Shown here: positions 7,152 through 18,561 of the stretch, piece by piece
Layout of the letters: the number at the start of each line of letters is the position of its first letter
How positions within the stretch are numbered: position 1 is the stretch's first letter
Assembly: GCA_023512415.1 (NCBI GenBank)
Contig: JAILZQ010000016.1
Coordinates: forward strand, 1-32,067
Reading direction: 5' to 3'
Source of the DNA: Geminicoccaceae bacterium
GTDB taxonomy: Bacteria; Pseudomonadota; Alphaproteobacteria; Geminicoccales; Geminicoccaceae
Length of the DNA stretch: 32,067 nt
The notes under the pieces: model-generated
Database searches by the model: none
What the model was told of the DNA's origin: nothing
What the model saw: the letters and a program-made list of their open reading frames with translations, nothing else
Made by a program: the position numbers and the translations under genes

Positions 7152-7958
7152 ATGCGGCGTGCGGGTGGCGATCTCCTGGTCCGGTTGCGTCGGCCGCTGG
7201 CCGCGACGGCCGCCTTCGCCTTGTTCTTCTCGGCCTGGGAGATCTCGGTCCGTTTGCTCGCCGTGCCCGACTACCTCTTGCCGCCGCCTTCCCTGGTCGC
7301 GAGCGAGCTCGCCGGCCGCTGGCCGCGGGTGCTCGATGCGGCGCGCGTGACCGGCTCGGAGATCCTCGCGGGCTACGCCCTCGCGATCCTCGTGAGCGTG
7401 CCGCTCGCTCTCCTGATCGCCGGATCGCGGCTGGTCGAGCGCACGATCTACCCGCTCGTCGTCTTCCTGCAGATCGTCCCCAAGATCGCGATCGCTCCGC
7501 TCTTCATCATCTGGTTCGGCTTCGGCTTCACACCGAAGCTCCTGCTCGTCTTCCTGCTCTGCTTCTTCCCGATCGTGGTGGGCGCTGTCGCGGGCTTCAA
7601 ATCGGTCGATCCGGACGTGTTGGATCTCGGCCGGTCGACCGGGGCGAGTGCGTGGCGACTGTTCACGAAGATCCGCCTGCCGCAGGCGCTCCCCGAGCTC
7701 TTCACCGGGCTCAAGGTCGGGGCGGCACTCGCCGCGACCGCCGCGGTCGTGGCCGAGTTCGTCGCCTCCAACCGCGGCCTCGGCTACCTGCTGCTCGAGT
7801 ACAACGGCAACCTCGAGACCGCGATGGTCTTCGCCGTGATCATCGTCCTCGCGCTCATGGGCCTCGCCCTCTACGGCCTGGTCGAGCTCGTCGAGCGGTT
7901 CGCGATCCCCTGGCACGCCCGCCAGAGGGGTGTGGGCGAGCCGCTGCCCGGCGCTTGA
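7152..7958 (+). CDS. ABC transporter permease, NitT/TauT/SsuC type
   Basis: 268 aa, multiple TM segments; EAA-like loop DPDVLDLGRSTGASAWRLFTKIRLPQALPELFTGLKVGAALAATAAVVAEF. Confidence 0.9.
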   Translation: MRRAGGDLLVRLRRPLAATAAFALFFSAWEISVRLLAVPDYLLPPPSLVASELAGRWPRVLDAARVTGSEILAGYALAILVSVPLALLIAGSRLVERTIYPLVVFLQIVPKIAIAPLFIIWFGFGFTPKLLLVFLLCFFPIVVGAVAGFKSVDPDVLDLGRSTGASAWRLFTKIRLPQALPELFTGLKVGAALAATAAVVAEFVASNRGLGYLLLEYNGNLETAMVFAVIIVLALMGLALYGLVELVERFAIPWHARQRGVGEPLPGA

Positions 7959-8132
7959 GTTCCGGTCGGCCGCTCGAAGTCCCGGCCGATCGGCACGCTC
8001 CCGGGCTCGGCCACGCTCCGGCCCTGCGTCGCCCGCGGGTCGGGCCACGGGTTGCGAGAATGGTCGAGCGGGCATCCGGCGCCTAGAGTTCGGCGAGAAC
8101 CGAGTCGGCTTCGGTCGGACAGGGGGGCGCAC

Positions 8133-9107
8133 ATGAGAAAACTCGCAAGTGGCCTGGTCGGGGCGCTTCTGTTGGCATCGGCGACCGGGTCCGCCACCGC
8201 GGCCGACAAGGCGTCCTTGATCTTGAATTGGTATCTGGGCGGGCTGCACACGCCGTTCTATCTGGGTGTGGCCAACGGCTGCTACGCTCGCGAGAACGTC
8301 GAGCTCACCATCGAGGAGGGGCGCGGCTCGGTCCGCGCCGTGCAGGTGGTGGGGGCCAAGGGCGCCACCTTCGGGATGTCGGATGCCGGCTCCTTGATGA
8401 TCGGGGTGAGCCGCGGGACGCCCTTGAAGGCCGTGATGTCGCTCCTGAACACCTCGGGCTTCGCGATCATCAGCCTCGAGAAGGTCGGCATCCGCACGGC
8501 CAAGGACCTCGAGGGCAAGAAGCTCGCGGTCTCGCCGGGCGACGCCTTGACCCAGCTCTTCCCCGCGGTGGTCAGGGCCAACGGGCTCGATGCGAGCAGG
8601 ATCGAGCTCGTCTTCATGGACCCGCCGGCCAAGGTGCCGGCCACCCTCGAGGGCCGCACGGACGCGCTCTTGGGCGGGATCGACGATCAGTTCTTCTTGA
8701 TCGAGGCGCAGGGCCACAAGGCCGCCGGCCTGCGCTTCGCCGATCTCGGTGTCAACACGGTCGGGATGACGATCCACGCCCACGAGGACACCATCCGCGA
8801 CCGACCCGACCTCGTCCGCCGTTTCGTCGAGGGAACGGTGTGCGCGTGGGAAGCGGCCAAGGCCGATCCCGACGCGGCGGTGGCGGCCGCCCTCGCGGTC
8901 AAGCCCGACCTCGACCGCGAATCCACCAAGAAGCAGCTCCTGGTCGACCTCGACCTGCTCGATTCGCCCGCGACCCGCGGCAAGGGCATCGGCTACGCCG
9001 CGGCCGAGGACTGGGAGCGGACCAAGGAGCTGCTCGTCCAGTACCGCGACCTGAAGACCGACCGGCCGGCCATGTCGTTCGTCACCAACGATTTCCTGCC
9101 GCGGTGA
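8133..9107 (+). CDS. ABC transporter substrate-binding protein (NMT1/THI5-like)
   Basis: Signal peptide MRKLASGLVGALLLASATGSATAADK then LILNWYLGGLHTPFYLGVANGCYARENVELTIEEGRGS, typical of NMT1/THI5-like binding proteins. Confidence 0.9.
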   Translation: MRKLASGLVGALLLASATGSATAADKASLILNWYLGGLHTPFYLGVANGCYARENVELTIEEGRGSVRAVQVVGAKGATFGMSDAGSLMIGVSRGTPLKAVMSLLNTSGFAIISLEKVGIRTAKDLEGKKLAVSPGDALTQLFPAVVRANGLDASRIELVFMDPPAKVPATLEGRTDALLGGIDDQFFLIEAQGHKAAGLRFADLGVNTVGMTIHAHEDTIRDRPDLVRRFVEGTVCAWEAAKADPDAAVAAALAVKPDLDRESTKKQLLVDLDLLDSPATRGKGIGYAAAEDWERTKELLVQYRDLKTDRPAMSFVTNDFLPR

Positions 9108-10018
9108 GCGCCGCGCTCGCGCACCTCGCGAGGGGGAGCGCGCCGGGGCCGAGCCCGCTCGAGCGTGCGATGATCGGCCTTTCCGGTGTGGCCAAGACCT
9201 TCCGCCGCGACGGCCTCGAGACCCGGGCGCTCGGCCCGCTCGACCTCGAGGTCGCGGTGCACGAGTTCTTGGCGATCGTCGGGCCCTCCGGCTGCGGCAA
9301 GAGCACGCTCCTCAGGATCGTGGCGGGCCTCCTGACGCCGAGCGAAGGCCGGGTGACGGTGGGCGGCCGGCGCGTCACGGGACCGGTGACGGAGCTCGGG
9401 ATCGTCTTCCAGAAGCCCGTGCTCCTGCCCTGGCGGGACCTCTTGGGCAACGTCCTCGTCCAGGTCGAGCTGCGCGGCCTGCGCGGGCCCGGCTGGCGGG
9501 CCCGGGCGGAGGAGCTGTTGGCGGCGGTCGGCCTCGCGGGCTTCGAGAGCCGCTGGCCGCACGAGCTCTCGGGCGGCATGCAGCAACGCGCCGCCTTGGC
9601 CCGCGCGTTGATCCACGACCCGCCGCTGCTGCTCATGGACGAGCCGTTCGGCGCGCTCGACGCCTTGACCCGCGAGCAGCTGCGGATCGACCTCGAGGAG
9701 CTGTGGCTCACGACCGGGAAGACCGTGCTGTTCGTCACCCATTCGATCGACGAGGCGGTCTTGCTCGCCGACCGGGTCGTGGTGATGGGCCCGCGGCCCG
9801 GGCGGATCGAGCGGATCGTGCCGGTGCCCCTCGCCCGCCCGCGCGGGCTCCAGGCGCGGCGCGAGCCCGGCTTCGAGTGGATCGTCCGGACGATCACCGA
9901 CGTCTTCTTGGCGCGGGGCGTCCTGCACGGTGGCCGCGTTTCGTTGGCCGCAGCCGGGACGTCCGCGACACGAACACGCGCGAATGCGAGCGCCGGGGCG
10001 AGCAGGGAGGAGCTATGA
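9104..10018 (+). CDS. ABC transporter ATP-binding protein, NitT/TauT type
   Basis: Walker A GPSGCGKST, signature LSGGMQQR, Walker B LLLMDEPFGALD, switch H VTHSIDEA. GTG start at 9104 overlaps the previous stop in frame; ATG at 9170 is the alternative. Confidence 0.92.
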   Translation: MSAALAHLARGSAPGPSPLERAMIGLSGVAKTFRRDGLETRALGPLDLEVAVHEFLAIVGPSGCGKSTLLRIVAGLLTPSEGRVTVGGRRVTGPVTELGIVFQKPVLLPWRDLLGNVLVQVELRGLRGPGWRARAEELLAAVGLAGFESRWPHELSGGMQQRAALARALIHDPPLLLMDEPFGALDALTREQLRIDLEELWLTTGKTVLFVTHSIDEAVLLADRVVVMGPRPGRIERIVPVPLARPRGLQARREPGFEWIVRTITDVFLARGVLHGGRVSLAAAGTSATRTRANASAGASREEL

Positions 10019-10888: not shown

Positions 10889-11809
10889 TCAGTCGGGCCG
10901 GAAGCAGCACAGGAGCTTGATCTCGACCACCCGGCCCTCGGCCTGGCGCTGGTCGGGTGGCGCCATCCCGGCTTGGAAGCGGCCGGCCAGCCGCTCCGCC
11001 GGCAGGCCCTGGCGGGCGAGTGCGTCGACCACCACCGCCATCCGCAGGAGCGCCTTCTCCCAGGCAGCCACCTCTACGCCAGCGGGCGAGGCGGCTGCTG
11101 CTGCGAAACTTTCGACCAGGATCAGCCAATCGCGATCGGCCGGCACGTTGCGGAGCGCCTCGGCGAGACCCACGACCGCGCGCTCGAGCTGGCGTTGCCC
11201 CTCAGGGTCGAGTTCGGTGCCGCCGGGCGGGAACGCGACCTCGCCCGCGAACAGGAACCCACCCCCCGATCGGCCCGCTTGGAGCGCTTGGTCGAGGCCG
11301 GCCACTGTCGACGCCCGGTAGCGGGTGCGGGTGTCGGCCTGCGCCGCGACCGCGTCGGACAGGCGCAGCGACAGATCCTGGATCTGTGCGTCGGCGAGCG
11401 CCAGCTGCCGCTCGGCCGACCACCAGAGCGCGGTCGCGCCGAGGCTAACGAGCGCGAGCGCGATCACCGCGAGAACCGCGCCGAAGGGCCAACTCCCCGA
11501 GCGCGGCGTGAGCCGCGGGCTTCGCCCCTTTGGCCGGGGGCGTGCCGAGGCCGCCGTGTGGCGTTCGGCCCGCTCGCGCGCGGAGCGGAACGCGCTTTCG
11601 TCGTAGGCGCGGCGGCGCACCGGGTCGCGCAGCACTTCGTAGGCTTCGACGAGGTGACGGAAGCGGTCCTCGTCGGCCTCGGGCCCGCCCTGATCGGGAT
11701 GCCAGAGCTTGGCACGCTCGCGGAACGCGGCCTTGAGCTCCTCGGCCGAGGCATCGCGACCGACGCCGAGTGCCCGGTAATAGCCCTTGGGGTCGTCGAC
11801 CGGATCCAT
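10889..11809 (-). CDS. J-domain protein fused to a TM segment and OmpA/MotB-like C-terminal domain
   Basis: 306 aa: DPKGYYRALGVGRDASAEELKAAFRERAKLWHPDQGG (J domain, HPD present); TM WPFGAVLAVIALALVSLGATALWW; C-term FLFAGEVAFPPGGTELDPEGQRQLERAVVGLAEAL...WLILVESFA...ALARQGLPAERLAGRFQAG...GRVVEIKL resembles OmpA-like domains. Confidence 0.8.
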   Translation of the reverse strand: MDPVDDPKGYYRALGVGRDASAEELKAAFRERAKLWHPDQGGPEADEDRFRHLVEAYEVLRDPVRRRAYDESAFRSARERAERHTAASARPRPKGRSPRLTPRSGSWPFGAVLAVIALALVSLGATALWWSAERQLALADAQIQDLSLRLSDAVAAQADTRTRYRASTVAGLDQALQAGRSGGGFLFAGEVAFPPGGTELDPEGQRQLERAVVGLAEALRNVPADRDWLILVESFAAAAASPAGVEVAAWEKALLRMAVVVDALARQGLPAERLAGRFQAGMAPPDQRQAEGRVVEIKLLCCFRPD

Positions 11810-11933
11810 GCCACGCCCGTGCCAGGACCGGCGCTCTATAGGCGGCGGCGCGCCGGCTCGGCAACCGCACCCGACGGCTTGCCGCCACCCGCCGCCACGG
11901 TCATGGTCGACCCCGGAACGAACGAGGCGAGGC

Positions 11934-12527
11934 GTGCCGACGCGGCTCCTGCGGATCCTGACCGGGTTCGTCGCCACCGTGCCCCGCTCGTCGCCGCGTC
12001 GACGCCGGCGGCCGGCGGACCGGCAGCGGGCTCGGGTCTATCGCTGGGAGCAGGCGGTGGTCTTTCCGGGCCGCGACGGGCTTCTCGACCTGGCGGCCTG
12101 CCGGTCCCTGGTCGAGGCGGTCTATCGCTGGGCGGAAGCCGACCGGGCCGGCACACCGGGGTGGGCGCCACCGCGGGTGACCGACGGGCGCGGTCGCCGC
12201 CACGCCTGCGGCTCGCGCGAGGTCGTCAAGCTGCCGCGCTGGGCCCGCACCGCACCGATCGTCCTGCACGAATGCGCGCACGGGCTCGCCGCCGACCAGC
12301 ACGGCCCGTGCTTCGTGGCAGCCTACGTCGCGCTCCTCGAACGGTTCCTGGGTATGGACGGCGCGGCGTTGCGGGCTAGCCTGGCAGCCGCCGGGATCGC
12401 CTGCGGCGAGGCTCGCTACGGCCCGGCCGGCCGCCTCGAGCTGCGCGCCGCTCAGGCCGGCCGCTCACCGACGAAGGTCATGAAGCGTTCGACCCGGCCA
12501 TCCGCACCGAAGGCCAAGACGTCGTAG
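11934..12527 (+). CDS. Putative small zinc metallohydrolase (HExxH-type)
   Basis: APIVLHECAHGLAADQHGPCFVAAYVALLERFLG: HECAH with downstream HGPxFVAAY. GTG start preceded by a gaggcgag purine-rich site; start uncertain. Confidence 0.65.
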   Translation: MPTRLLRILTGFVATVPRSSPRRRRRPADRQRARVYRWEQAVVFPGRDGLLDLAACRSLVEAVYRWAEADRAGTPGWAPPRVTDGRGRRHACGSREVVKLPRWARTAPIVLHECAHGLAADQHGPCFVAAYVALLERFLGMDGAALRASLAAAGIACGEARYGPAGRLELRAAQAGRSPTKVMKRSTRPSAPKAKTS

Positions 12528-12910
12528 CGGTCGGGCGTGGGCGAGGGCATGCCCGGCGAGCCCGCGGGCATGCCGGGCACCGCGAGCCCCCTCACCCACG
12601 CCGGCCGATCGGCCTGGAGGCGGCGGATGGCCAGCGCCGGCACGTGGCCCTCGACGAGGAGGTCCGCGAGCCGCGCCGAATGGCAGCCGGCGAGCTCCTC
12701 GGGTATGCCGAGCCGGGCGCGGATCGGGGCGAGGTCGGCGTGCTCGCTCGTCCGGGTCGAAAAGCCCTGGGCCTCGAGATGGCGGGCCCAGAGCGTGCAG
12801 CAGCCGCAGCCGCGCAGCTTCCAGATCTCGACGAGCGGTGCCGCCGCGGCGGCGCGCGGCGCGAGGGCGGCCGTGACGGCGAGCAGGAGTGCGCGGCGGC
12901 CGAACGGCAT
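12452..12910 (-). CDS. DUF411 family metal-associated protein, signal peptide
   Basis: MPFGRRALLLAVTAALAPRAAAAAPLVEIWKLRGCGCCTLWARHLEAQGF: CGCC motif and DUF411-type sequence, adjacent to copper genes. Confidence 0.85.
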   Translation of the reverse strand: MPFGRRALLLAVTAALAPRAAAAAPLVEIWKLRGCGCCTLWARHLEAQGFSTRTSEHADLAPIRARLGIPEELAGCHSARLADLLVEGHVPALAIRRLQADRPAWVRGLAVPGMPAGSPGMPSPTPDRYDVLAFGADGRVERFMTFVGERPA

Positions 12911-12922
12911 GGGCGATCTCCC

Positions 12923-14353
12923 TCAGGCGACCTCGACCAGGGCCATCATGCCCGAGCCCTGGTGTTCGAGCACGTGGCAATGCAGCATCCAAAGGCCCGG
13001 ATTGTCGGCCACGAACGCGACCTCGACCCGCTCGCCCGGGGCCACGAGCACGGTGTCGCGCCAGGGCCGGCCGAGCTCCTCGCGGCCGTCGCGGGCGAGG
13101 ACGCGGAAGGCGTGGCCGTGCAAGTGGATCGGGTGCGGGAAGGCGGTCCGGTTGAGGATCGCGAGGCGGTAGCTGCGGCCGAGCGCCAGGCGCAAGAGCG
13201 GCGGCTCGTGGCCGTGCCCGTGCTCGGCCATCGCGCGGCCGTTGATGGTCCAGAACAAACCTCGGCCGAAGAGCGCCCGAAGCTCGCGCGGGTCGGGAGG
13301 CGGCAGTCGCGCGGCGGGCGCCCGGCCGCGCATCATCGTCGCCATCATGCCGCCGTCGAGCACGAGCTCGTGCTCCTGCGCTGCGGCCAGGTCCGGCTCG
13401 GCCAGGGGGTTCGCCGGAAGCGCGGGCGGCGGCCCACGGTCCACGGCGGGCGGCGGCGCCTCGTTGCGGGTCACCGCGAGCGACGTCACCCGGTAGGTCC
13501 CTTGCGGGTCGCCCTCGTCGAGGAGGTCGATCCGCGCGAGGCGCACCGCCGGCACGTCGAGCACCAGATCGGCACGCTGGCCGGGTGCGAGGAGGAGCGG
13601 GTCCTCGATCCGTCGGGGCGCCAGCGGGTGGCCGTCGAGCGCCACGAGCCACGGCTCGGCACCCTTGAGGCGCAGCGCGAAGATCCGCGCGTTGGCGGCG
13701 TTCAGCAGCCTGAGCCGGAGCCGCTCGCCGGGCCGCACCTCCAGCCGCTCGACCACCCTGCCGTTGACCGTGACGGTGTTGCCGTAGGCGCCCGCGTGCG
13801 AAGCGTCGTGCGGGCTCGGGCGCACCTCGTTGACCGCGTCCGGCCCGAGCCGCCAATCGTCGAGCACGAGTGCCAGCTCGCGGTCGACCGGCCAGCGCTC
13901 GGGCTCTTCGACCACGAGGAGGCCGTAGAGGCCACGGCCGACCTGTTCGGCGCTGCGAAGGTGCGGGTGGTACCAGAAGGTGCCCGCATCCGCGAGCGGC
14001 AGCTCGTAGCGGAACCGACCACCCGGTGGGATCGGCGGTTGGCTGCTACCCGGGACCCCGTCCATGCCGACCGGGACCCTGAGCCCGTGCCAGTGCACCG
14101 TCGTGGGCTCGGGCAGGCCGTTCTCGACCTCGACCACGAGCCGCTCGCCCTGCCGCCCGCGCAGCGTCGGCCCCGGTACCGAGCCGTCGTAGGCCCAAAC
14201 CTCCGTCGAGGGCCAGCCCTCGCCGACGAGCTCTACGCGAGCGGGTGCGGCGCGCAGGCGCAGCGGCTGCAACCCTGCACCGGCCAGGCGGGCGAGCGGT
14301 GCGGTCGCCGCCGCGGCGAGCAGCGCTCGGCGGGCGAGCCGCGGCCCGTTCAT
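12923..14353 (-). CDS. Multicopper oxidase
   Basis: 477 codons; copper motifs HWHGLR, WYHPH, HPIHLHGHAF, HCHVLEHQGSGMM; Met-rich GGMMATMMRGR. Start overlaps the copA stop (14350-14353). Confidence 0.93.
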   Translation of the reverse strand: MNGPRLARRALLAAAATAPLARLAGAGLQPLRLRAAPARVELVGEGWPSTEVWAYDGSVPGPTLRGRQGERLVVEVENGLPEPTTVHWHGLRVPVGMDGVPGSSQPPIPPGGRFRYELPLADAGTFWYHPHLRSAEQVGRGLYGLLVVEEPERWPVDRELALVLDDWRLGPDAVNEVRPSPHDASHAGAYGNTVTVNGRVVERLEVRPGERLRLRLLNAANARIFALRLKGAEPWLVALDGHPLAPRRIEDPLLLAPGQRADLVLDVPAVRLARIDLLDEGDPQGTYRVTSLAVTRNEAPPPAVDRGPPPALPANPLAEPDLAAAQEHELVLDGGMMATMMRGRAPAARLPPPDPRELRALFGRGLFWTINGRAMAEHGHGHEPPLLRLALGRSYRLAILNRTAFPHPIHLHGHAFRVLARDGREELGRPWRDTVLVAPGERVEVAFVADNPGLWMLHCHVLEHQGSGMMALVEVA

Positions 14354-16806
14354 GCCGCGGTATCCCGTGCCGGCCGCCAGCGGCGGAGGCGCAGCGCATT
14401 GGCCACGACCGAGACGCTCGAGAGCGCCATGGCGGTGCCGGCCAGGGCCGGTGAGAGCAGGCCGAGTGCCGCGACGGGCAGGCCCAGGAGGTTGTAGAGG
14501 AAGGCCCAAACGAGGTTCTGGCGGATCGTCCGGCGGGTCGCGGCGGCGATCTCGAGGGCAGCGGCCACGAGCCGAGGGTCCGGGCGCAAAAGGGTCAGGC
14601 CGGCGGCAGCACGCGCAGCGTCCGCCCCGCCTCCCATCGCGACCCCCACATCGGCGGCTGCGAGCGCCGGGGCGTCGTTGACCCCGTCCCCGACCATCGC
14701 CACGACCCGCCCCTCGGTGCGGAAGCGCGCGATCGCCGCGACCTTCTCGGCTGGCAGGAGCGGTGCTTCGACGCTCGGGATGCCGACCGCACGGGCGACC
14801 CGCTCGGCGGTCGCGCGCAGATCGCCGGAAAGGAGTGCCGTCGCGAGCCCGCGCCGGTGGAGGGCGGCGACCGCTTCGGCTGCCTCGGGCCTGAGCGCGT
14901 CCTCGAGCCCCAAGAGGCCCGCGAGCTCGCCGTCGACCGCCACCCAAGCGAGGCTGCGGCCGGCGGCCGCTTCGGACCGGGCGCGTTCGGCGAGCGGTGC
15001 GGTTGCGATCCCGACTTCCTCGAGGAGTTCGGCCCGACCGATCCGGATCACCCGCCCCTCGACCCGCGCGACGAGACCGACACCGGGCCGGGCCTCGAAG
15101 GTCTCGACCGGGGGCAATGCGAGGCCGCGCTCGGAGGCTGCTCGCAGGATCGCCCGACCGAGCGGGTGCTCGCTGCCCTGCTGGGCGGCGGCCACGAGGC
15201 GCAGGAGCGACTCCTCCGAGCCGGTCAGGGGATGCACGGCGACCAGCTCGGGCCGGCCGACGGTGAGCGTGCCGGTCTTGTCGAAGGCCACGAGGTCGAC
15301 CGCGTGCGCGCGCTCGAGGGTGGCGATGTCGCGGATCAAGATGCCGGCACGCGCCGCCGCCCCGGTCCCGGCAACCAGGGCTGCGGGTGTGGCCAGACCC
15401 AGCGCGCAGGGGCAGGCGATCACCAGCACCGCCACGGCAGCCGGCAAGGCCCGGTCGAGGCCACCCCCGGCGGCGAGCCAAGCGAGGAACACGAACGCCG
15501 CGAACGCGACGACCGCCGGCACGAAGACCGCGCTCACCCGGTCGACCAGCCGCTGGATCGGTGCCTTGCCGGCTTGCGCCCGTTCGACGAGCTCGGTGAT
15601 CCGGGCGAGCGTGGTGTCGCTGCCGACCCGCTCGGCCACGCAGCGCAACAGCCCGCTGCCGTTGATCGAGCCGGCGATCACCCGATCGCCCGGGCCCTTG
15701 CGCACGGGCAAGCTCTCGCCGGTCAAGAGCGACTCGTCGAGCTCGCTCACACCGTCGAGAATGCGGGCGTCGACCGGCACCCGCTCGCCCGGGCGGATCA
15801 CCAGCCGATCCCCGACCGCGACCTCCTCGACCGGCAGCTCGACCTCGCGACCGGCGCGCACGACCCGTGCGGTTTCGGGCGCCAGCGCGGCGAGTTCGCG
15901 CAAAGCGGCAGCGGCGCTCGCCTTGGCCCTGGCCTCGAGCCAGCGGCCGAGCCGGACCACGGTGATGATGGCCGCTGCCCCCTCGAAATAGAGCCGACCG
16001 CGCGCCGCCTCGCCCTCGAGCAAAACGAGCACGAGTCCGTGCAGGAAGGCCGCACTCGTGCCGAGCGCCACGAGCAGGCTCATGTTGCCGGTGCCGGCCC
16101 GCAGCCCCGACCAGGCGTCGCGGTAGAAGCGCGCGCCGAGCAGGAACTGGACCGGGGCGGCGAGCGCGAGCTCGAGCCACGGGCTCGGGTGCAGGTGGAG
16201 GGCCAAAGGGGCGGCGAGCATCGGCAGGACGAGGGGCGCCGTGAGCAGCGCGGCCAGGACGAGCGCCACGCCCTCGCGCCGGCGGGCGGCACGTTCGGCG
16301 GCCGCTGCCCGCTCGGCCTCGAGACCGCGCCCGCCCTCGAGCGCCGCCCGGTAGCCGGCCTCCCGGACGGCCGCCACGAGTGCCGCCGGGATCGCCGGAT
16401 CGGCCAGATGACGGACCTCGGCGCGTTCGCTCGCGAGGTTGACGCTCACCTCGAGCACGCCCGGCACGGCGGCGAGCGCCCGCTCGACCCGGCCGACGCA
16501 GGAGGCGCAGTTCATCCCGCCGATCGCGAGCCGGCTGGTCCGCTCGCGCACCGCGTAGCCGGCCGAGCGGACCGCCTCCACGAGATCGGCCGGGGCGGCC
16601 GGCGGGTCGGCGAGCAGGAGCTCGGCCCGCTCGGTCGCGAAGTTGACCTCGGCCGCAGCGACCCCGGGCAGACGCCCGAGCACGCGCTCGAGGCGGGTGG
16701 CGCAGGCCGCACAGCTCATGCCGGCGATCGGCAGGGCGAGTCGGCGCTCGCGCCGGGCGGCCGGCGCCGCGGCGGGCTCCGGTCTCGTCTCGGCGAGCGT
16801 TTCCAT
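14350..16806 (-). CDS. copA: Copper-translocating P1B-type ATPase with two N-terminal HMA domains
   Basis: 818 aa; two CxxC HMA motifs (GMSCAACATRLE, GMNCASCVGRVE), TM CPC motif (VIACPCALGLATP), DKTGTLT, GDGVNDAPAL. Confidence 0.93.
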   Translation of the reverse strand: METLAETRPEPAAAPAARRERRLALPIAGMSCAACATRLERVLGRLPGVAAAEVNFATERAELLLADPPAAPADLVEAVRSAGYAVRERTSRLAIGGMNCASCVGRVERALAAVPGVLEVSVNLASERAEVRHLADPAIPAALVAAVREAGYRAALEGGRGLEAERAAAAERAARRREGVALVLAALLTAPLVLPMLAAPLALHLHPSPWLELALAAPVQFLLGARFYRDAWSGLRAGTGNMSLLVALGTSAAFLHGLVLVLLEGEAARGRLYFEGAAAIITVVRLGRWLEARAKASAAAALRELAALAPETARVVRAGREVELPVEEVAVGDRLVIRPGERVPVDARILDGVSELDESLLTGESLPVRKGPGDRVIAGSINGSGLLRCVAERVGSDTTLARITELVERAQAGKAPIQRLVDRVSAVFVPAVVAFAAFVFLAWLAAGGGLDRALPAAVAVLVIACPCALGLATPAALVAGTGAAARAGILIRDIATLERAHAVDLVAFDKTGTLTVGRPELVAVHPLTGSEESLLRLVAAAQQGSEHPLGRAILRAASERGLALPPVETFEARPGVGLVARVEGRVIRIGRAELLEEVGIATAPLAERARSEAAAGRSLAWVAVDGELAGLLGLEDALRPEAAEAVAALHRRGLATALLSGDLRATAERVARAVGIPSVEAPLLPAEKVAAIARFRTEGRVVAMVGDGVNDAPALAAADVGVAMGGGADAARAAAGLTLLRPDPRLVAAALEIAAATRRTIRQNLVWAFLYNLLGLPVAALGLLSPALAGTAMALSSVSVVANALRLRRWRPARDTAA

Positions 16807-17220
16807 GGTCGAGCAGTCCTCTCGGCCGCCGCGCGGCGGAACCCTGCGGCCCGTCTCGACGCCCCGGCCGACCGTGCGGCGGCTCGTCGCGCGCTAAAGT
16901 CGATAAATACGCATCCTCGAGTGGCCCGGCAACCAGCAGGCCGGCGAGGCCGGGATCCGGACCGGCCACGGTCGAGGCGACGGCACCCGGGGGGGTTCCG
17001 GCGCGGAGCTCGGGCACGGCCCGGCTGCGGCGAGCCGCAGAGCGAGGAGGGTCGGGACCGGCCGGGGCTGCGCACCGCTCGCCTTTGCAGCGAGGGGCTT
17101 GTCTCCCTTCTGCACCTTGCCGCGCGAGCCTGCATCCCCGTGGAGGCGATCTGCGCTCGCGACGCTTGACCGCGCCATCGGAGCGACGGCCTATGGTGTC
17201 GGCCAGGGGAGGATCGAGCG

Positions 17221-18561
17221 ATGGCGACCGCACGCATGGCCGTTCGGGCGGCCAATCTCGGGCTCGAAGAGGCGGTCGCCGACGCCGAGGCGCGCTACGT
17301 CGCGGCCCGACCGAAGAGCCGGGCGATCTTCGAGCAGAACCTCGAGGCCATGCCCGGCGGGAACACCCGCACGGTCCTGTTCTTCCGGCCTTTCCCGATG
17401 GTGATCGCCCGAGGCCACGGGGCGAGGCTGGTCGACGTCGACGGCCACGAATATGTCGATTGGCTCGGCGAATATTCCGCCGGCCTCTACGGCCACAGCC
17501 ATCCGGTTATCCTCGCGGCGATCCGGGAGGCGCTCGAGGACGGGATCGCGCTCGGCGGACCGAACCGCTTCGAGGGTCCGCTCGCGGCCGAGCTCTGCCG
17601 CCGGTTCCCCTCGCTCGAGCTTGTGCGCTTCTGCAATTCCGGGACCGAGGCCAATCTCTTCGCGATCGCCGCGGCGCGCGCCTTCACCGGGCGGCCGGCG
17701 GTCATGGTGTTCGAGCACGGCTATCACGGCGGGGTCTTCTATTTCATCCCGGGCGCCGACCGGATCAACGCCCCCTTCCCCTGGGTGCTCGCCCCCTACA
17801 ACGACCTCGACGGCACGCTCGCTCTGCTCGAGGCGCACGCCCACGAGCTCGCGGCCGTGCTCGTCGAGCCGATGCAGGGCAGTGCGGGTGCGCTGCCGGC
17901 GGAGCCCGGGTTCCTTCGAGCGCTGCGCGAGGCCTGCAGCCGCTACGGCATCTGCCTGATCTTCGACGAGGTGATGACCTCGCGGACCAGCGCCGGCGGG
18001 CTGCAGGCGCGGCTCGGAATCACCCCGGACCTCACTTCGCTCGGCAAATATCTGGGCGGCGGTCTCACCCTTTCGGCGTTCGGTGGCAAAGCCGCGATCA
18101 TGGCCCAGTTCGACCCCCGCCGGCCGCAGGCGATCCCGCACGCCGGCACCTTCAACAACAACGTCTTGGCGATGGCCGCCGGGCTCGCGGGACTGCGGAA
18201 GCTCGCCACGGCCGAGGCGTTGGAGGCGCATTTCCGGCGCGGCGAGCAGCTCAAAGAGAAGATCAACGCGCTGGCCGCCCGGCACGGGCTGCCGTTCCAA
18301 TGCACCGGATGTGGATCGATCCTCGGCCTGCACTGCCAGGGCGGGACGCTGCGCTCGGGACGCGATCTGGCCGCGCAAGATCCGCTCCGCCGCGAGCTGT
18401 TGCAGCGTCTGCTCCACTACGACCTGCTGGAGCGGGGGCACTATCTGGCCCGGCGCGGTTATCTCACGCTCTCCTTGCCACTCACCGAGGCGGACGAGCG
18501 GAGCTTCCTTTCCGCGATCGACGAGTTCCTCTCGGTTCGGCGCAATCTGCTGCTCGCCTGA
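17221..18561 (+). CDS. Class III aminotransferase, glutamate-1-semialdehyde 2,1-aminomutase-like
   Basis: 446 aa; MPGGNTRTVLFFRPFPMVIARGHGARLVDVDGHEYVDWLGEYSAGLYGHSHP, FCNSGTEANLFAIAAARAFTGRPAVMVFEHGYHGG, IFDEVMTSR, SLGKYLGGGLTLSAFGGK, HAGTFNNN. Confidence 0.88.
   Translation: MATARMAVRAANLGLEEAVADAEARYVAARPKSRAIFEQNLEAMPGGNTRTVLFFRPFPMVIARGHGARLVDVDGHEYVDWLGEYSAGLYGHSHPVILAAIREALEDGIALGGPNRFEGPLAAELCRRFPSLELVRFCNSGTEANLFAIAAARAFTGRPAVMVFEHGYHGGVFYFIPGADRINAPFPWVLAPYNDLDGTLALLEAHAHELAAVLVEPMQGSAGALPAEPGFLRALREACSRYGICLIFDEVMTSRTSAGGLQARLGITPDLTSLGKYLGGGLTLSAFGGKAAIMAQFDPRRPQAIPHAGTFNNNVLAMAAGLAGLRKLATAEALEAHFRRGEQLKEKINALAARHGLPFQCTGCGSILGLHCQGGTLRSGRDLAAQDPLRRELLQRLLHYDLLERGHYLARRGYLTLSLPLTEADERSFLSAIDEFLSVRRNLLLA

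Follow-up and report, generated by a model that had tools for sequence, protein, structure and literature searches.

What might a protein be doing that carries a DnaJ-type J domain at one end, an OmpA-like domain at the other, and a single membrane-spanning helix between them? Such a protein, here termed J-OmpA, is encoded within a 32,067-nucleotide stretch of DNA from a Geminicoccaceae bacterium, the whole of which is referred to as the window. A preliminary description, made from the sequence alone, had placed the open reading frame at positions 10889-11809. Those coordinates are exact, but no strand had been given; the gene, encoding 306 aa, is on the minus strand, and the plus strand of this same interval is an unrelated frame. 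Overlooked as well were an invariant Cys-Cys pair at the C terminus, the origin of the OmpA-like domain from the PRK09039 family, and a conserved, divergently oriented gene next door.

The J-OmpA gene and its parts

Features of the gene, and of its upstream flank, are as follows:

10889..11809, minus strand: the J-OmpA gene, with ATG at 11809 and stop at 10889-10891; orthologues are of matching extent
11594..11788, minus strand: J domain, residues 8-72 (Pfam DnaJ, 1.7e-18), with HPD at residues 37-39 (11693-11701), seen in 20/20
11489..11593, minus strand: basic, variable linker, residues 73-107, as indicated by charge, fastest evolution, and low pLDDT at 93-106
11420..11488, minus strand: predicted single transmembrane helix, residues about 108-130, from hydropathy and charge bias (20/20) and a helix in the model
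11255..11419, minus strand: helical stalk, residues 131-185, the helix spanning 109-182 in the model, partly at low confidence
10910..11254, minus strand: OmpA/MotB/PRK09039-type domain, residues 186-300, from profiles, AlphaFold and Foldseek, with the DAP-site Asp and Asn replaced and Arg256 kept
10904..10909, minus strand: invariant Cys301-Cys302, the protein's only cysteines
11834..11866, minus strand: promoter-like footprint, GGTTGCC (11860-11866) and then CTATAG in CCTATAGAG (11834-11842)
11934..12527, plus strand, start codon predicted: divergent neighbour, an unclassified HExxH protein, with HECAH at 12267-12281 and a further His at 12300-12302

J-OmpA genes were found in 22 genomes. 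Twenty of these genes can be read whole, that of genome G002 being cut by a contig end and that of G030 apparently being split over two contigs, and it is these 20 which are compared here. The proposed N-terminal J domain with intact HPD is evident in the window protein (Pfam match over residues 10-70, above cut-off), and both domain and invariant HPD are found, by Pfam and alignment, in 20/20. So too with the basic linker and single membrane helix that had been suggested to follow. That is, the window protein possesses one hydrophobic segment, at about residues 108-130. Net charge is +7 over the 30 residues leading up to this segment and -2 beyond it, and in all 20 proteins a single hydrophobic segment likewise follows a stretch of net positive charge. 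The 19-residue hydrophobic core of this segment contains no Asp or Glu in any of the 20 proteins.

Hydropathy and charge together suggest a topology with the basic side inward, i.e., with the J domain on the cytoplasmic side of the membrane. The idea that J-OmpA places an Hsp70 recruiter at the envelope is supported in this way, at the level of sequence, by a J domain with its HPD and by a membrane segment with positive-inside bias. A full-length AlphaFold model gives the J domain, the membrane helix, and the OmpA domain each with confidence, but not their arrangement relative to one another (pTM 0.45).

The OmpA-type domain, its origin and its altered residues

The C-terminal region had been described as OmpA/MotB-like, and both profiles and predicted structure bear this out. 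The Pfam OmpA profile matches residues 193-277 of the window protein at 8.7e-5, its 23.2 bits falling just below the curated cut-off of 27.2, with the best family member reaching 1.6e-9. NCBIfam PRK09039 matches residues 137-291 at 5.3e-17. An AlphaFold model of residues 186-304, a check that the preliminary description had itself proposed, is confident (pLDDT 90, pTM 0.84), and the PDB structures that Foldseek ranks nearest to it are the periplasmic domains of OmpA, PorE, TagL, MotB, and Pal, at TM-scores of about 0.6-0.7.

PRK09039 (NCBIfam NF006542-NF006546) is a MotB-like, peptidoglycan-binding family of which the C-terminal OmpA-type domain, along with part of the stalk, aligns with J-OmpA, the Trp and Arg of a WEL...R helix being common to both. 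The OmpA part of J-OmpA is, as judged from these matches, a descendant of this family. J-OmpA is not, however, a PRK09039 equivalog, as it scores 62.6 bits versus a curated cut-off of 305, and PRK09039, unlike J-OmpA, has no J domain, retains its DAP site in full, and is free of Cys in this domain. As to the PRK09039 genes themselves, one genome, G005, has an apparent operon (L201:4516-10698) consisting of a weak MotA/ExbB-like gene, PRK09039, and the gene of a coiled-coil protein of 1202 aa that has an OmpA domain at its C terminus. In other genomes, too, a PRK09039 gene is paired in a similar way with a long OmpA-type frame.

DAP is contacted in TagL by Asp486, Asn494, Leu497, and Arg501, with mutation of Asn494, Leu497, or Arg501 having abolished cell-wall binding (PMC8253398). 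The corresponding positions were compared between the 20 J-OmpA proteins and 32 PRK09039-like domains, the latter from the same as well as from other orders. The Asp is present in 0/20 versus 32/32, and the Asn likewise in 0/20 versus 32/32. The Leu is found in 8/20 versus 31/32, being Lys in the window protein, while the Arg is kept in 20/20 and 32/32. J-OmpA, that is, does not carry the Asp, Asn, Leu, and Arg combination of a peptidoglycan-binding DAP site.

Envelope or peptidoglycan state had been proposed to be coupled to DnaK via J-OmpA. Because the DAP-site Asp and Asn are absent from all 20 proteins, this peptidoglycan link is not supported, and from the lost residues we infer that J-OmpA would not bind the cell wall; another mode of such binding may be compatible with loss of the DAP contacts. 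To view J-OmpA instead as a peptidoglycan-anchored J protein, as first suggested, is to emphasize its OmpA/Pal/MotB fold and its universally retained Arg. We consider this to be very unlikely, however, given that the remaining contacts are gone or loose and that change of the matching Asn, Leu, or Arg was enough to abolish binding by TagL.

What has been gained instead is Cys-Cys, a pair with which the last strand ends in 20/20 J-OmpA proteins versus 0/32 PRK09039-like domains. These are the sole cysteines in 18 of the 20 proteins, the other two each carrying one more, in the membrane helix. The pair may form a vicinal or an inter-subunit disulfide, or may bind metal.

Distribution of the family and its gene neighbourhoods

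Orthologues were found by whole-genome search in the same genus and family, and a profile of the OmpA part finds J-OmpA in 22 of 32 genomes searched of the order (10 of 16 genera), with the order sampled here as a single family only. There is a gap in E-values between J-OmpA, at 2.7e-26 or better, and PRK09039-like proteins, at 4e-17 or weaker. Outside of the family, no J-OmpA was found in a class sample of 385 genomes, where every match belongs with the weaker group (best 7e-17), and at 1e-18 a phylum sample of 399 genomes returns only the window's own match. The architecture had been called rare, and among these class and phylum genomes it indeed is confined to one order, though the surveys are samples and rare cases may exist in other orders.

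A tree of the OmpA domain separates all J-OmpA rows from the PRK09039-like domains by a branch supported at 100/100, and because of this branch a single origin is likely, i.e., J-OmpA likely constitutes one monophyletic family. Invariant in 20/20 are the HPD, Arg256, Ala280-Gly281, and Cys301-Cys302. Values of dN/dS of 0.10-0.16, versus the two closest relatives, indicate purifying selection; the J domain evolves slowest and the linker fastest, and GC at the three codon positions of the gene is 0.81/0.54/0.86. The window being a draft contig, one might worry that a J-domain gene and an OmpA gene have simply been joined wrongly, by chance or in assembly. The orthologues refute this, as 20 genomes, the single-contig G005 among them, share this open frame and purifying selection acts upon it, so that the chance of an artefact is negligible.

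The gene divergent from J-OmpA encodes an HExxH protein whose core, DGRGRRHACGSR...HECAHG...HGP, is strongly conserved. A Pfam scan assigns it to no family, and its TIGR04338 match (1.1e-6) is weak, far below cut-off. The two genes stand head-to-head in 17 genomes, the window included, and in many genera, while most other neighbours differ. Their presence also is correlated, with the HExxH gene found in 17/22 genomes with J-OmpA versus 2/10 without (Fisher p 0.005, kinship uncorrected), and in one of the latter two the contig ends at that gene. The pair may be viewed, for example, as a functional one, with DnaK, recruited by J-OmpA, delivering or remodelling substrates for a putative metallopeptidase, or with one of the two proteins regulating the other. 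From a different perspective, however, divergent pairs can persist for their shared promoter region alone; the HExxH gene was not found beside J-OmpA in G006, G012, and G020, its motif is degraded to HRCLH in G021, and the protein's activity is putative, its family match being weak. A functional pairing seems to us quite unlikely.

The promoter-like footprint upstream of J-OmpA has about 17-18 nt between GGTTGCC and CTATAG, and CCTATAGAG ends 24 nt before the ATG. This pair of elements is kept with few base changes in 5/5 aligned members of the genus, the rest of the intergenic stretch being variable; a strict sigma-70 scan of the region gives no match.

Other neighbours were considered and set aside. 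A downstream PhzF gene is conserved in nine other genomes but is absent beside the window gene, and so was rejected as a functional partner. A link to copper was rejected as well, as copper genes adjoin J-OmpA mainly within the genus, plus in one further genome (G016). The window itself holds a likely copper cluster at 12452-17233 (minus strand), encoding a DUF411 protein, a multicopper oxidase, and a P-type ATPase with two HMA domains. At 7152-9928 (plus strand) are ABC transporter genes, with permease-like and ATPase-like frames flanking the gene of an NMT1/THI5-type binding protein.

Another reading begins with the nearness of the OmpA domain to PRK09039. J-OmpA could be a partner subunit of a complex formed of PRK09039 and a MotA/ExbB-like protein, pairing with its PRK09039 paralogue via its OmpA fold or stalk and bringing DnaK there. 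In G020 and G030, which are of one genus, a PRK09039 gene indeed comes directly before J-OmpA on the same strand, and in G005 the PRK09039 gene directly follows the gene with the weak MotA/ExbB match. That match, however, is below its cut-off and is of one locus only, and in the other genomes read the PRK09039 and J-OmpA genes are not adjacent. Further, MotB-type stator subunits have an acidic residue in the membrane helix, which J-OmpA lacks (0/20), and J-OmpA therefore is unlikely itself to be a MotB-type proton subunit. Partnership with such a complex is, overall, unlikely, if with a real chance of being correct.

A probable role at the inner membrane

What we think probable is that J-OmpA is an inner-membrane class C J protein which recruits DnaK, and whose periplasmic domain has been repurposed from DAP binding. 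The N-terminal J domain, on the cytoplasmic side, would be expected to stimulate the cell's DnaK, as may be argued from what J domains are established to do and from the precedent of DjlA. The single membrane helix would serve as anchor in the inner membrane, with periplasmic stalk and OmpA-fold domain probably setting the protein's place in the envelope. That domain would have come from a MotB-like PRK09039 ancestor, losing its DAP site and acquiring a vicinal pair of cysteines where its last strand ends. Rather than DAP, it most likely recognizes another protein or a second copy of itself, or else is responsive to thiol redox or to metal. The net effect would be DjlA-like, with DnaK brought to a particular membrane complex. 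A narrower proposal, and an unlikely one, is that J-OmpA is switched from outside, the periplasmic Cys-Cys determining by its thiol state or its metal loading whether DnaK is engaged at the inner membrane, and at which site.

Among known proteins DjlA, a membrane-anchored class C J protein, is similar in having a single membrane helix, a cytoplasmic J domain, and an expected DnaK partner; it acts on a membrane signalling pair via DnaK, its J domain being required (PMC11709261), and in Caulobacter it is induced together with an envelope pump (PMC10754441). Its order is different, however: a short periplasmic N terminus, then membrane helix, TerB, and finally the J domain, at the C terminus. In J-OmpA this order is reversed, with N-terminal J domain and a folded periplasmic domain, and Pfam scans find no TerB match in it. 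In DjlB and DjlC of E. coli, as in J-OmpA, a J domain comes ahead of a membrane anchor (PMC8215388). They are tail-anchored, though, hence without a folded domain beyond the membrane, and they work with HscC, whereas only one full-length Hsp70 was found in the source genome of J-OmpA. The periplasmic domains of OmpA, Pal, MotB, and TagL have the same fold, but in J-OmpA the DAP contacts are lost and a membrane helix and J domain stand in front. By the features tested, J-OmpA is a class C J-domain protein with an OmpA-type domain, and is neither a DjlA, a PRK09039 equivalog, nor a MotB-type subunit.

The openly licensed literature searched holds no description of this protein or architecture; one elsewhere is possible. 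J-OmpA looks like a new, lineage-specific way to post DnaK at the membrane. A cell-wall-binding fold has apparently been joined to a J domain once, its wall-binding site then lost and its cysteine pair invariant, and therefore the residues to test can be read from the sequence itself. J-OmpA bears on how class C J proteins come to their sites of action, and could show how Hsp70 is steered to envelope complexes from the periplasmic side.

The source genome, a 95% complete assembly, has one full-length DnaK, with adjoining dnaJ, and five J-domain matches. No DjlA (TerB plus J in one protein) was found in it, since its TerB domain comes without a J domain. Among TerB loci of the order's genomes there are nine DjlA-like frames (HMM), in 5/22 genomes with J-OmpA versus 4/10 without. 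Replacement of DjlA by J-OmpA was rejected on this basis, there being no clear exclusion; because a DjlA-like gene is present as well in five of the genomes that carry an orthologue, J-OmpA is not simply a DjlA substitute. In G018 (contig C2) the J-OmpA gene (377194, L057) and a DjlA-like TerB plus J gene (383103, L217) lie about 5 kb apart.
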